Assembly (NCBI RefSeq): GCF_009828835.1
Contig: NZ_WTTB01000003.1
Location: 1-64,000, forward strand
Direction of reading: 5' to 3'
Length of the DNA: 64,000 nt
Source of the DNA: Erysipelothrix urinaevulpis
GTDB taxonomy: Bacteria; Bacillota_I; Bacilli_A; Erysipelotrichales; Erysipelotrichaceae
Positions 5,012-9,890 of this stretch are shown piece after piece. Below the pieces are notes generated by a model. That model was not told where the DNA came from. It ran no database searches and was given only the letters and a program-made list of their open reading frames with translations. The first letter of the stretch is position 1; each line of letters opens with the position of its first letter. The translations under genes were made by a program, and so were the position numbers.

Positions 5012-5044
5012 TCGATTAATCAGACTTACTTTCAATATCATAGA

Positions 5045-5073
5045 AGAGTGCTCAATTGAGCACTCTTTTTTTG
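5045..5073 (+). terminator. Terminator after sodA
   Basis: The perfect inverted repeat AGAGTGCTCAATTGAGCACTCT is followed by a run of T residues. It separates sodA from the accessory island. Confidence 0.93.
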
Positions 5074-5150
5074 TTTTTCAAGATACTCTAACGATTTATC
5101 ATGGATGATAGAGTCATTTACACTCTTCGAAGCATTAGATAAAAGCCAGT

Positions 5151-5165
5151 TAAAGTGTCACTTTA
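5151..5165. promoter_or_regulatory. 15-bp palindrome upstream of the peptide promoter
   Basis: TAAAGTGTCACTTTA is a 7-1-7 perfect palindrome about 75 bp upstream of the -35 element of the peptide promoter. The one-base centre makes it unsuitable as an RNA hairpin, so a protein-binding site is more likely. The binding protein is unknown. Confidence 0.4.
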
Positions 5166-5239
5166 TTTCTTCTTTTTGGGTAGTTAAATCTTGAAAATCG
5201 ACTGTTCTGATGTATTATCACACAGTTCTAATTATTTTA

Positions 5240-5268
5240 TTGACTCGATTAAAATTGATTGTTATTCT
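5240..5268 (+). promoter_or_regulatory. Promoter of the peptide/ABC island
   Basis: TTGACT (5240-5245), a 17-base spacer and TATTCT (5263-5268) form a good vegetative promoter. The predicted RNA starts only about 20 bases before the peptide ATG at 5294, leaving just the GAGGGG ribosome site in the leader. Confidence 0.7.
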
Positions 5269-5293
5269 TCTTGTGAAAGAGGGGTATTACAAT

Positions 5294-5485
5294 ATGTTAC
5301 ATTTATTTTCGAATTATTTTGCATTAGATTTTAAGGATTCAAATCCAAAAAGCATCAAGAATCATGCACCTGGTATTGTTTGGTTTATTGTTATTGCCAT
5401 TGTATTCTACGCAATCTTTTGTACTTACAAAGGTCATAGCTTTGGCGTTATAGCAAACCCACTGAAAGTCGGGTGTTGGAAATAG
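5294..5485 (+). CDS. Small membrane peptide with two cysteines (bacteriocin- or pheromone-like, unrecognised)
   Basis: A 63-residue peptide I do not recognise. It has a polar N-terminal third (residues 1-26, with three lysines), one strongly hydrophobic helix (about 28-43, GIVWFIVIAIVFYAIF) and a 20-residue C-terminal tail with Cys43 at the helix end and Cys61 near the terminus, which could form one disulfide loop. The ATG at 5294 follows AAAGAGGGG; an upstream in-frame start at 5210 would overlap the promoter. It is the first gene of a unit with an ABC transporter, a membrane protease and a thioredoxin-like lipoprotein, which suggests a processed, exported peptide. Bacteriocin, toxin or signal are all possible. 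Confidence 0.6.
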   Translation: MLHLFSNYFALDFKDSNPKSIKNHAPGIVWFIVIAIVFYAIFCTYKGHSFGVIANPLKVGCWK

Positions 5486-5513
5486 ATATAGAGAATTCTC
5501 TCTATATCTTTTT
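5484..5513 (+). terminator. Terminator/attenuator overlapping the peptide stop codon
   Basis: AGATATAGAG and CTCTATATCT pair in a 10-11 bp stem that begins inside the peptide stop codon and is followed by five T residues. The ABC gene begins four bases later, so this is likely a partial terminator favouring peptide mRNA over transporter mRNA. Confidence 0.8.
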
Positions 5514-5516
5514 ATT

Positions 5517-6191
5517 ATGATTAAGGTACATATACTAGAAAAAAAATTTAACCATTTAGTTCTTAAAAATGTTGATTTAAAAATTGAGAATAACAATGTT
5601 TATGGTTTGATTGGGTTAAATGGTAGTGGTAAAACTACGCTGATAAATCTTATATTGGGCTTAGACCTAGATTTTAAAGGGAATATTTCATTCTCAGAAA
5701 ATAGTCGAGGAATTGATGATTGCTTTTATATTCCTTCAGATTTTTTTCTACCTAATTACCTCACAGGACAAGAGTATTTTATTTATTTGCATAAACTAAA
5801 AGAAAAGGATATAAATTTTGATTATTTCAATAAGCTTTGTGAGTTGTTTTTTATTGATCAAAATAAATTAATTGAACATTACTCATATGGAATGAAGAAG
5901 AAAATCCAGTTTATTGTTGGAATCTTATTAAATTGCAAATACTATATTTTCGATGAGTTAACAAGTGGATTAGATATAGAAGCGGTTTTGCTCATTGAGA
6001 AAATCCTTGAGCATCATCAGTCTACTTTTATTATCTCTTCCCATGAGATTGATTTTATCGACCGCATCTCTAATGAAGTTCTTCTGATAGACAATCATCA
6101 AGTGCGATCAATTACTGGAAACCTAAGAGAACAGCTGTCGAGCCTAAGTAAAGTTGAAAGTTTATATGAGCAAATTAATAATTTTATTTAG
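5517..6191 (+). CDS. ABC transporter ATP-binding protein
   Basis: A 224-residue ATPase subunit with the full set of motifs: Walker A GLNGSGKT (33-40), a degenerate signature YSYGMKKK (122-129), Walker B YYIFDE (142-147) with the catalytic glutamate present, and the switch histidine in SSHE (His176). It energises the membrane protein encoded by the next gene, with which it overlaps by 26 bases. Its ATG is directly preceded by a terminator T-run and there is no Shine-Dalgarno sequence, so translation may be weak or coupled. The layout resembles two-component exporters used for peptide export or self-protection (for example YydIJ), but the substrate is unknown. Confidence 0.9.
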   Translation: MIKVHILEKKFNHLVLKNVDLKIENNNVYGLIGLNGSGKTTLINLILGLDLDFKGNISFSENSRGIDDCFYIPSDFFLPNYLTGQEYFIYLHKLKEKDINFDYFNKLCELFFIDQNKLIEHYSYGMKKKIQFIVGILLNCKYYIFDELTSGLDIEAVLLIEKILEHHQSTFIISSHEIDFIDRISNEVLLIDNHQVRSITGNLREQLSSLSKVESLYEQINNFI

Positions 6192-7512
6192 AATCTTAAT
6201 AAAAGAATTCCTTGGTAAGTTTAATGTTAAAGAAAACAAACAAAATTTATACTTGTTTGTGTTTGTTGTCGTTATTTTCGTTTACTACAGTCTTTCAATT
6301 ACGCCAACGAACCTAAACTCGAATTTTGAAATGTTGAATAACATCGTCATACTAGGAATCTTACAGATCCCTTCCGTTGCAATAATTTCGTATCTCTTTG
6401 TCTATATTAGTTTTGATTTTTCTTATAAACTCAACCAATTTTTTGTAACAAATTTCATTAGCAATAAACTGTTAAACACTACAAAGAAAATATTGATGAG
6501 TATAGGAGTCCAGATTTTTGCACTTATTTTAATTCTTTTACAAGCTGGCATTCCACTTTACCGGAGTTTGAATGCAATTTTATTTTTAAAGTTTATTTTA
6601 ATGAGCGTTATTGGTTTTAATCTAATGTTCGTAATTATTGATTGTTTTACAAAATATTTGGAAACGAACTATCAAAAATTGGGTTTTAAACTTACGGCAA
6701 CACGAATAATAATCCTCGTTAATCTCTCAATTATTTATGTTGCTGTCTACTATTCTGAACTTGTGGTTTGGTTTAATGATTTAAAAAAATTAGATGTTTT
6801 TTCCTATTTTTCAAAAAGCAGTCTTATTTTTTGGCTCTTTCTTTTGTTTGTGTCGTTCATTCTATTATGGCTTTATTCTTTATTTATTACGCATACCGTA
6901 AGTTTGACACACACTTTTACAAATCGCTATTTTCGATTGACAAGTTCAAAAAAGATGACAACAGAAAGAAAGTATATCTATTCGATAATCAGAAATAGCA
7001 AGAGTTTATTCATACTTGTTTTTACTTTCTTAGCCCAAATGTTAAATTTAATGATGACAAAAGATCCTTCGATTGCTCTCTCTTTAAGTTTGTTTATGAC
7101 AGCTATAGGAATCAACTTTTTTTCAAATATAAGCCATGAACAGAAATTTTTATTTTTCTATAACAATCATGACTCTATTAGTATTTTAGGTGTTTTGTTT
7201 CTTGTATTTACTGTAATTAATTCTCCGTTTATCGTTTTAGCTCTTAGGACTAATCCACTAGCAATTTTTCAAGCTTATCTGATCTTCTTGAGCTCTATCT
7301 ATTTAGGAGTTGTTTTCCCGCGTGAAAATAATAGTTTGAATCGTTTTATATCAAATTTCATGCTGACTATATTTTCATTTCTGTTAATACTATTAAGCAT
7401 CATTGTTAAGGAAACATATCTAAAATATACTCTGCATGTTTTATTGACATTTGTTTTTCTTGTATTCACTAGTTATAAATTTAGGAGGTTTTATGAAAAA
7501 AACAGCATTTAA
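6166..7512 (+). CDS. ABC transporter permease, polytopic membrane protein
   Basis: A 448-residue membrane protein with roughly ten to twelve hydrophobic segments, for example VFVVVIFVYYSLS, VAIISYLFVYISF, LILILLQAG and SIYLGVVFP, and short lysine-rich loops. No family name can be given from sequence alone. It is assigned as permease because it overlaps the ATPase gene and has no other recognisable domain. The ATG at 6166 is preferred; an in-frame TTG at 6154 is possible. The next gene begins inside its 3' end. Base composition is clearly A+T-rich, as in the rest of the island. Confidence 0.75.
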   Translation: MSKLIILFRILIKEFLGKFNVKENKQNLYLFVFVVVIFVYYSLSITPTNLNSNFEMLNNIVILGILQIPSVAIISYLFVYISFDFSYKLNQFFVTNFISNKLLNTTKKILMSIGVQIFALILILLQAGIPLYRSLNAILFLKFILMSVIGFNLMFVIIDCFTKYLETNYQKLGFKLTATRIIILVNLSIIYVAVYYSELVVWFNDLKKLDVFSYFSKSSLIFWLFLLFVSFILLWLYSLFITHTVSLTHTFTNRYFRLTSSKKMTTERKYIYSIIRNSKSLFILVFTFLAQMLNLMMTKDPSIALSLSLFMTAIGINFFSNISHEQKFLFFYNNHDSISILGVLFLVFTVINSPFIVLALRTNPLAIFQAYLIFLSSIYLGVVFPRENNSLNRFISNFMLTIFSFLLILLSIIVKETYLKYTLHVLLTFVFLVFTSYKFRRFYEKNSI

Positions 7513-7759
7513 AAGCATCTATTTAGGGACAAACCTTTTTCTTGCTTTACTTTTAATAGATTATGTTTTCACATTATTTTCTTTGTCAGAAACTGGAGTA
7601 GTTACCAGTACGATGGGAATTGTATTTGATCACATAGAGACACCAACTTATATTTCTACTTCTTTTAGTGTTGCACCTAGGATTATTTTGTTTTATTTTG
7701 CAATTCTAGGCCTAACAGCAATGGTAAATAAATTTAGCAAACATGATGTATCTCATTGA
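7493..7759 (+). CDS. Small two-helix membrane protein of the peptide island
   Basis: An 88-residue protein I do not recognise. It has two predicted membrane helices (about 10-30, LGTNLFLALLLIDYVFTLFSL, and about 62-78, IILFYFAILGLTAMV) joined by a loop of about 30 residues that lacks cysteines. A near-perfect ribosome site AGGAGG lies before the ATG at 7493, within the 3' end of the permease gene (20-base overlap). The gene overlaps the protease gene downstream by 17 bases. Small membrane proteins in such units often protect the producer, but an immunity role here is only a guess. Confidence 0.65.
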   Translation: MKKTAFKSIYLGTNLFLALLLIDYVFTLFSLSETGVVTSTMGIVFDHIETPTYISTSFSVAPRIILFYFAILGLTAMVNKFSKHDVSH

Positions 7760-8078
7760 TTTTTATATAACACTTACTTTGCATGAATCGGTTCATTTTA
7801 TTTTTGCTTTATTCTTTGCTAGAACTCCACAATTAAAGTTCTTTTTATTCTTTTTCCCTTATATTGAGTATCGAGAAAATAACGCCTACCTACAAAATTG
7901 TATCATTAGTTTCGCACCAATTTTAATTCATCTTATTCTTTCAATAAGCAGTCGTGCAAGCCTTAGTTTTATTAACAGAATTTTTATGCTGTCGTTTCTT
8001 CCTGTTACCTCAGATGGTCAGTCATTTTGGCAAAATTTATTAAAATATTTTAACGAAAAGAGGAATTATGAAAATTAA
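7743..8078 (+). CDS. Very small M50-like (site-2 type) membrane metalloprotease
   Basis: A 111-residue hydrophobic protein with a complete zinc-protease motif HESVH at residues 14-18 inside a membrane helix, and a second motif LPVTSDG near 86-92 that resembles the N/LP-x3-DG element supplying the third zinc ligand in M50 proteases. The order and spacing (HExxH, hydrophobic stretch, DG) fit a minimal M50 core. If active, it would cut a membrane-embedded substrate, and the peptide of 5294-5485 is the obvious candidate. It overlaps both neighbours, so translation is probably coupled. M50 homologues such as YydH occur in other peptide operons. The protein is unusually short for the family. Confidence 0.6.
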   Translation: MMYLIDFYITLTLHESVHFIFALFFARTPQLKFFLFFFPYIEYRENNAYLQNCIISFAPILIHLILSISSRASLSFINRIFMLSFLPVTSDGQSFWQNLLKYFNEKRNYEN

Positions 8079-8559
8079 AAAATATATTATTATTCTATTA
8101 TTCTTTATAAGTGCTTGTTCGATGGAAGGAAGAAAACAATCATCACATTCGGATGGTCAATGGTTTAGCGAGTACAATTTGGATTCTTCTTCTATAAAAA
8201 ATATATCTTTTGATGAGCTTATAAAGATGGAAGATAAAGAATCGTTCGCCATCGTTCTATCAACGCCTGATTGTGGTGCTTGTCAAAAAGCAATACCTTC
8301 CCTGAACACACTTGCATTTAAATATGAGCTAAACAACATTTATCATATTAACGCATCAAATATAGATCAAAAGCAACGTGCAGCGCTCAATGCACTTTTA
8401 AATAACCAACTTAAGACCCATGATGATGGCTCGATTTCCTTATTGGTACCTAGTTTGTATACTTTCACAAATGGTCAAATCAAGGATTCTCAAGTCGGGT
8501 TAACTGATTCTTTAAAGAGTTTAGAACAGGAATATCTTAGAATACTTAGCGATATGTAA
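8068..8559 (+). CDS. Thioredoxin-like lipoprotein
   Basis: A 163-residue protein anchored outside the cytoplasmic membrane. Residues 1-17 form a lipoprotein signal (KKYIIILLFFISAC) with lipid attachment predicted at Cys17. The thioredoxin-fold region has the redox centre DCGAC (Cys69, Cys72) after the strand FAIVLSTP, then LVPSLYTFTNG with the expected cis-proline (VP). The role would be making or reducing disulfides outside the cell. It is the last gene of the island and overlaps the protease gene by 11 bases. The two-cysteine peptide in the same unit is a plausible substrate. Confidence 0.85.
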   Translation: MKIKKYIIILLFFISACSMEGRKQSSHSDGQWFSEYNLDSSSIKNISFDELIKMEDKESFAIVLSTPDCGACQKAIPSLNTLAFKYELNNIYHINASNIDQKQRAALNALLNNQLKTHDDGSISLLVPSLYTFTNGQIKDSQVGLTDSLKSLEQEYLRILSDM

Positions 8560-8662
8560 CCTTGTTAAAAAACTAATAACAGTCTTATATACTGCATTTT
8601 TTAATTATGTATCTTTATTTAGTCATAAATTCAAATTTAAAACGTAGATATTCGTTTAATTA

Positions 8663-8689
8663 CGGAAACACAATATTTCACTGTTTCCG
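8663..8689. promoter_or_regulatory. Perfect inverted repeat at the regulator promoter
   Basis: CGGAAACA (8663-8670) and TGTTTCCG (8682-8689) are perfect 8-bp arms separated by 11 bases. The right arm ends two bases before a TACAAT -10 element (8691-8696), and the repeat covers the place of a -35 element, for which no consensus is seen. This suggests an operator or activator site, probably for the adjacent regulator. Confidence 0.6.
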
Positions 8690-8718
8690 CTACAATTAAT
8701 GAAGGTAGGAGGGATAGT

Positions 8719-9876
8719 ATTGACACTTTAGATTTGAAAATAGACCTAATCCGTCATCACTTATCCACTCAACATATAAAGGTGACGGATCTTGCTTATG
8801 AAGCCGGTTATGCTCGTCCGTATTTATCTGCGATTTTAAATCGCAATCGACGAGCTAATCATGCGCTTTTAAACCACTTGTTAGAAACGCTTGATATAAA
8901 CTATAAGTTAGAAATACAGCAGTTAGAAACATTGTATAGCCTTTTGGATATGTTTCAACACTCTCTTACCTACAAGACCATTAATCGAACATCACTCTAT
9001 CAAAGAATCGAACCTTTATCGTATTTAATTTCGATTTCTCTTGTATTACAAAATCGTTATCATATTTTGAATTCGATTTATAAGATTCAAATGAATTTAA
9101 GTTATTCGTTAGATCAAGTTGAGTCTATGAATGACTCGTTGTACTATTGGTTATTATGTGAACATTATTTCTTAAAGCAAAAACCAATTCAATTAATGAA
9201 CCATGCTGAGAATGGCCTAAGTTGCCCTAGCAAACTCTATATCTTTAATTACTACATGGCCTATGCCCATTTCTTGAATAACGATTTTATTTCTTCTTTG
9301 AAATTTTTAGAAGTTTCGGAGTATAATGCTTTAAAGAATCATAATTATCAAAGAATTATCGATATTCAATTATTAAGGATGAAGATTACGGTCATGAATA
9401 AAGACTTTAATAATTCATTCAAAATATATGAACAGCTCCGCAATTTACTATCTTATAATCAAGTAGCAAGTGATAGTTTGGATCAGGAATGGTTTAAATC
9501 TTTAATTTATCTCGATGAGCTTGATGACGCTATTCAACTCCGACATAACTTATCAAAGCATTCCTCTTCTACTAAATTGGCGAACATGATTTTAGATTTA
9601 AAGTTAAATTTAGAATCATCTGAAATTATTACAGAGAATGATTTTGAAGCATCAGTCTTGGTATTCATTCGTAAAATTAAAGAGCAAACCCTATCGACTT
9701 CTGAACTTGAAAAAAACATAGACTTTATTTGTAACGCATATTACCATGATTATTTAGTTAAATGTTTAACGTGTTCATATCTTGCTTCATATCTTCTAAC
9801 AGCTAGAAGATATAAATCATTATCTGTAGTACTTCAAAAATTCCCCCAATTAAAAATAGGAAATCACAATCAGTGA
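8719..9876 (+). CDS. HTH transcriptional regulator with helical-repeat C-terminus (RRNPP/Rgg-like)
   Basis: About 385 residues. The N-terminal 60 form a Cro/CI-type helix-turn-helix (VTDLAYEAGYARPYLSAIL, then NRNRRANHALL). The remaining 320 residues are almost entirely amphipathic helices with TPR-like spacing, the plan of peptide-sensing RRNPP regulators. There is no ATG: the ribosome site AGGAGG (8707-8712) is spaced for an ATT at 8719, while the first conventional start (TTG, 8734) is 21 bases from it. It follows the peptide island in the same direction with its own promoter region and may control it. Ligand sensing is inferred from domain plan only. Confidence 0.7.
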   Translation: MDTLDLKIDLIRHHLSTQHIKVTDLAYEAGYARPYLSAILNRNRRANHALLNHLLETLDINYKLEIQQLETLYSLLDMFQHSLTYKTINRTSLYQRIEPLSYLISISLVLQNRYHILNSIYKIQMNLSYSLDQVESMNDSLYYWLLCEHYFLKQKPIQLMNHAENGLSCPSKLYIFNYYMAYAHFLNNDFISSLKFLEVSEYNALKNHNYQRIIDIQLLRMKITVMNKDFNNSFKIYEQLRNLLSYNQVASDSLDQEWFKSLIYLDELDDAIQLRHNLSKHSSSTKLANMILDLKLNLESSEIITENDFEASVLVFIRKIKEQTLSTSELEKNIDFICNAYYHDYLVKCLTCSYLASYLLTARRYKSLSVVLQKFPQLKIGNHNQ

Positions 9877-9890
9877 CTTCCTATTTTTTT
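9852..9890. terminator. Bidirectional terminator inside two convergent gene ends
   Basis: AAAAATAGGAA and TTCCTATTTTT pair, with flanking A and T runs on both strands. The hairpin overlaps the last codons of both the regulator (plus) and trmH (minus). Confidence 0.85.

Follow-up and report, generated by a model that had tools for sequence, protein, structure and literature searches.

This study concerns a group of genes on contig NZ_WTTB01000003.1 of Erysipelothrix urinaevulpis (RefSeq assembly GCF_009828835.1), of which positions 1 to 64,000 were analysed (64,000 nucleotides, nt; hereafter the window). An operon of six genes occupies positions 5294-8559 of the forward strand and specifies, in order, a peptide of 63 amino acids (5294..5485), an ATP-binding cassette (ABC) ATPase (5517..6191), a polytopic permease (6154 or 6166 to 7512), a two-helix protein (7493..7759), an HExxH protein (7743..8078) and a lipoprotein with the motif CGAC (8068..8559). 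A regulator-like gene on the same strand (8719..9876) follows, set off from the lipoprotein gene by about 160-174 nt. All seven open reading frames were present and unbroken at these positions, and the six genes listed in a preliminary description of this DNA (two-cysteine membrane peptide, ATPase, permease, small membrane protein, HExxH protein, CGAC lipoprotein) were all recovered with intact frames. The tight overlap reported for them holds from the ATPase through the lipoprotein, where the genes overlap one another, but not for the peptide gene, which lies 31 nt from the ATPase gene, and the reported A+T-richness of the island is real but mild (G+C 0.28-0.32, against 0.33-0.38 in the flanks). 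The island had been thought undescribed; however, its gene content and order match those of TMcin clusters (PMC12328743, PMC13252029), and its ATPase, permease and protease are homologous to TMcin proteins. It is probably a divergent member of the TMcin-type biosynthetic gene clusters, gained at a chromosomal site whose content varies.

TMcins were first described in 2025-2026, from one studied product, and the link to them was reached through the literature on DUF3267. As set out in PMC13252029, TMcin-G1905 derives from the membrane peptide TmcA, which has two conserved cysteines and a leader that is cut off by TmcP (DUF3267), while the DsbA-like TmcD forms the disulfide, TmcBC is the exporter, and TmcE, with two helices, is an escort required for the cut and proposed for export; each step was demonstrated with mutants. 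Mature TMcin-G1905 makes large pores in Gram-positive membranes (PMC12328743). Neither Erysipelothrix nor thioredoxin is named in the main text of the 2025 TMcin paper.

Reference loci were collected with the published mature TMcin-G1905 sequence as query, which found six plasmids at E below 1e-4; a TmcA alignment was made from the plasmid loci, 50 more TMcin loci were then found in GTDB genomes, and profiles of TmcA, TmcB, TmcC, TmcE and TmcP were built from the collected loci with the window sequences left out. Typing by profile gave the gene orders A-B-C-P-E in Bacillus and relatives, B-C-E-P-A in staphylococci and enterococci, and A-B-C-E-P in most actinobacteria. The window order, A-B-C-E-P plus a thioredoxin-like gene, thus matches one known among TMcin loci and, since the same set in the same order recurs in many unrelated Gram-positives, the gene set represents more than chance. 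TMcin-G1905 of Staphylococcus aureus pCT545 and its counterpart on S. epidermidis pHOB2 (NZ_CP018844.1) share all five core functions with the window cluster, with a helix-turn-helix (HTH) gene and, on pCT545, a thiol oxidoreductase nearby; they differ in their B-C-E-P-A order and in a longer TmcA with fixed spacings. The actinobacterial and Bacillus/Peribacillus loci resemble the window in placing A first, followed by B-C (A-B-C-E-P in actinobacteria), but have a canonical TmcA. Two of the reference loci were unusual in themselves: in Kandleria vitulina (L150, 6944-7548) nothing but a tmcE-like gene comes after a canonical tmcA, B, C and P being absent, as in an orphan or decaying locus, and in Metabacillus kandeliae (L128, about 6587-7165) two tmcA-like reading frames in tandem were typed ahead of tmcB.

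When the ATPase was searched by tblastn against 72,556 plasmids, only five records fell at E<1e-20, and these were exactly the five plasmids, among those found with the TMcin-G1905 peptide, on which a canonical tmcA lies beside tmcBC; identity to the pHOB2 ATPase was 35.5%. The sixth plasmid found with that peptide, from Roseburia, had no tmcBC within the stretch examined, its locus (L105, 5917-8588) comprising tmcA, a tmcE-like gene, tmcP and then a double thioredoxin plus DsbD-like fusion. The next tier of ATPase matches examined (7e-20 and weaker) consisted of ordinary exporters, among them transporters for lantibiotics and for tetronasin resistance; the plasmid match OY726033 was likewise rejected as a relative, being an ordinary ABC exporter. 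The Walker motifs are kept, and the TmcB profile placed this ATPase first among the window reading frames, although by bit score alone it was not separated from other ABC ATPases.

The permease (448-452 aa, starting at TTG 6154 or ATG 6166) was the first of all window reading frames with the TmcC profile (E=2.4e-5; next 0.16). It scored 17.7 bits, while none of 24 control permeases, among them the neighbours of the next-best ATPase matches, exceeded -4.6, and shuffled sequences reached -28.6 at most. Arg280 and a G-x-x-x-P motif are conserved. There was no Pfam or NCBIfam match, and as a query the permease found no credible relative in 146 family and 395 class genomes, nor in plasmids, viral contigs or GTDB contigs. 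With the TmcC profile, the 316 order and 395 class genomes yielded one further TMcin-type locus, from another family of the same class (L163, 5643-8104), with tmcB-tmcC-tmcE and no recognised precursor or protease. The window holds adjacent homologues of tmcB and tmcC, and we assign its machinery to this type with good confidence. The ABC pair had been suggested either to export the peptide or to protect the cell; export is the function shown for TmcBC, whereas protection is not the function shown there.

The HExxH protein, a site-2-type metalloprotease comparable to TmcP, carries HESVH and a distal LPVTSDG. It matched DUF3267 at E=1.5e-4, which is under the Pfam cut-off, and ranked first of all window reading frames with the TmcP profile (E=1e-6; next 0.2), scoring 22.7 bits against 6.5 at most for controls. 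In alignment with TmcP, the H, E and H of the motif and the distal P, D and G are invariant. The protein has the DUF3267 similarity, HExxH and distal Asp/Pro of TmcP, but starts at the HExxH helix and lacks the upstream N-terminal region. The TmcP of Bacillus and Paraclostridium, by contrast, has an N-terminal extension (annotated as PqqD-like in Paraclostridium) and is encoded before E. The two-helix protein, to which no role had previously been assigned, is a putative escort: it resembles in size and topology the proteins encoded between C and P in TMcin loci and sits at the corresponding place, and its presumed counterpart TmcE is described as an escort in PMC13252029; it was first with the TmcE profile, weakly (E=0.01; next 0.2).

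The CGAC lipoprotein, a putative functional counterpart of TmcD, matched Pfam Thioredoxin at E=1e-3, under the cut-off, as well as thioredoxins in the PDB. A thiol oxidoreductase is thus present near the cluster, although thioredoxin-like (CGAC) rather than DsbA-like as in TMcin-G1905, where TmcD has CPHC. Such enzymes are frequent near TMcin clusters of staphylococci and not universal. Two Enterococcus loci (L148, L149) have the core genes and, like the window, thioredoxin-like membrane proteins, directly 3' of tmcA, but differ from it in their B-C-E-P-A order and canonical TmcA; the Paraclostridium locus has a Thioredoxin_4 (DsbA-like) protein and the Roseburia locus the fusion noted above. 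It follows that different oxidoreductases accompany TMcin clusters. Another conceivable origin of the island is a site-2-protease peptide system of the yydFGHIJ or skf type that is independent of TMcins and has converged on the same gene list. The skfA-H and yydFGHIJ operons of Bacillus subtilis are work-alikes of the window cluster, with a peptide, an ABC pair and a membrane protease, and skf includes a thioredoxin-like gene. They also have radical-SAM enzymes, while the window operon has none by Pfam and NCBIfam, as had been noted when an oxidoreductase was proposed to stand in their place. The SkfA profile found no match in the whole genome, and no sequence link to these operons was seen. 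The preliminary description had looked to yydFGHIJ for the nearest parallel; the ATPase, permease and protease are instead specifically similar to TMcin genes, which makes an independent origin highly improbable.

The precursor peptide stands in the tmcA position behind the ribosome-binding site AGAGGGG. It comprises a leader (about residues 1-26), one hydrophobic helix (about 27-43) with Trp-Phe near its start, and a C-terminal loop from Cys43, at the far end of the helix, to Cys61, near the C terminus; TmcA, too, has just one hydrophobic helix and a pair of cysteines, of which the second lies close to the C-terminal end. Its alignment score to the TmcA profile was reached by 2 of 300 full shuffles. 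No Pfam or NCBIfam match was found, no credible relative was seen in 60 related genomes, and there was none in plasmids or viral contigs.

Several results weigh against a TMcin assignment, and most concern this peptide. The TmcA profile did not detect it (E about 6). When leader, helix and tail were shuffled apart, 63 of 600 shuffles matched its alignment score, and 133 of 600 did so with the cysteines held fixed (z 0.7-1.2). The distances from Trp to Cys (13) and from Cys to Cys (18) compare with 23 and 24/25 in 51 of 52 TMcin family members, and AlphaFold, given the peptide alone as a single sequence, returned a low-confidence model with helices but without a beta hairpin. Elsewhere in the operon, the two-helix protein made a weak match to the TmcE profile, scoring 12.6 bits where the highest of 300 shuffles reached 10.8; the AlphaFold model of the protease (predicted local distance difference test score 71) had no PDB match; and in an ATPase tree the window sequence lay on a long branch without a resolved placement. 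On its sequence the peptide cannot be classified as TmcA, and it is too short and too different for a standard TMcin; the earlier statement that it resembles nothing known is partly borne out by the failed profile test, but not as regards the kind of system, which has been described. Its product would be a short variant, most likely a bacteriocin. A cut at the published position (before A-W-F) would leave a helix of about 14 residues, fewer than a normal span takes; cleavage may therefore occur further upstream, or the product may act in another way.

What this shortening signifies can be read in more than one way. The peptide may be a functional precursor of a distinct short TMcin subclass, in which, relative to the collected TMcins, the helix is shorter by about 10 residues and the disulfide loop by about 6-7, and which a reduced protease would process; we give this slightly less than an even chance. 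Relatives have longer versions of the precursor, the permease, the protease and the E protein, the window protease is without its N-terminal region and partial clusters occur elsewhere, all of which would suit a decaying cluster in which deletions shortened the precursor and protease and function was lost. Yet all frames are intact, several ribosome-binding sites are good, and neither the cysteines nor the HExxH, distal Asp, Walker or CGAC motifs have been lost, so that decay appears distinctly unlikely. A third possibility, also unlikely, is that TMcin-derived machinery serves another substrate, the short peptide being a pheromone for which TmcBCEP-like proteins provide maturation and export and the adjacent regulator is the sensor. 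The departures in length and spacing and the failed TmcA profile would agree with this, as would the position of the regulator-like gene, next on the same strand; but two cysteines with a dedicated thiol lipoprotein better suit a disulfide-stabilised bacteriocin, HTH genes are also carried by TMcin clusters (PMC12328743), and evidence that the regulator belongs to the RRNPP group was not found.

The product of that gene is a putative HTH regulator whose C-terminal part is helical. A possible ATT start at 8719 has AGGAGGG 5 nt upstream of it, and TTG 8734 is the first start codon of an ordinary kind (region 8707-8736). Its RRNPP-like character, proposed earlier, gained no support from sequence searches of Pfam and the PDB, neither of which gave a match, and among 12 congeners there was no relative except for a short marginal match. 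A likeness in size to 380-aa genes near other TMcin loci was dismissed as chance. Upstream of the gene is an inverted repeat, CGGAAACA-N11-TGTTTCCG (8660-8692), a possible operator.

Between the peptide and ATPase genes (5484..5509, forward strand) is a perfect 11-bp hairpin followed by a T run, attenuator-like in form (-14.1 kcal/mol, z -3.55). Among the A-first loci compared, a strong tmcA-tmcB hairpin was also seen in Peribacillus, the B. pumilus and B. licheniformis groups, Marininema, Metabacillus, Georgenia/Oceanitalea, Terrabacter and Pseudarthrobacter; it was not present in Paraclostridium/Romboutsia, nor was it general in actinobacteria. It may hold expression of the precursor above that of the machinery. 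Portions of the TMcin papers (PMC12328743, PMC13252029) make no mention of it.

Close relatives of the peptide, permease, ATPase, lipoprotein, protease and regulator were absent from Pfam, NCBIfam, the PDB, plasmids, viral contigs, GTDB contigs and related genomes, and the short stretches around family-level ATPase and thioredoxin matches showed no operon partners. In the genus, the usual order at this site is an M32-like carboxypeptidase gene and superoxide dismutase, with a ribosomal RNA (rRNA) methyltransferase gene and ileS after them. The gap that separates superoxide dismutase from the methyltransferase gene (window 5012-9880) is 246 nt in one congener (L092); in nine others (L093-L101) it is filled with a GNAT gene, insertion sequence (IS)-type genes, large surface-type proteins or other small genes, and in two (L102, L103) the neighbourhood differs. 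Across the window and L092-L101, this gap is accordingly seen empty or holding GNAT, IS-type, large surface-type or TMcin-type genes. Because the 12 congeners differ there and none (0/12) has the cluster, we regard the gap as a variable site that received it. The conservation expected of the gene set is therefore lacking at this site in congeners, but the same set is kept across Gram-positives.

By analogy with TMcin-G1905, the 63-residue precursor would be inserted in the membrane, where the lipoprotein would form the Cys43-Cys61 disulfide at the outer face and the two-helix protein would present the peptide to the small site-2-type protease, which would take off the leader. The ABC transporter would then pull the mature helix-plus-loop peptide from the membrane and release it against neighbouring Gram-positive cells, in which it would most likely form membrane pores. 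All the biochemical steps, together with the cut site and any antibacterial activity, are proposed on this basis. The scheme offered in the preliminary description (anchored peptide, outside disulfide, intramembrane cut, ABC-driven release) agrees with the pathway that PMC13252029 derives from mutagenesis, and is carried over here by analogy.

The window locus was reachable through TmcB, TmcC and TmcP and not through its peptide, which means that searches seeded with TmcA miss members of the family. Two questions become testable: how short a helix and loop can still make a pore, and whether TmcD can be replaced by a thioredoxin-like lipoprotein. If a short subclass does exist, its mature product would have to differ from the known beta-barrel pore in how it spans the membrane, oligomerises or acts. 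The combination of TMcin-type machinery with a much shorter precursor indicates the range of substrates that this machinery may tolerate.

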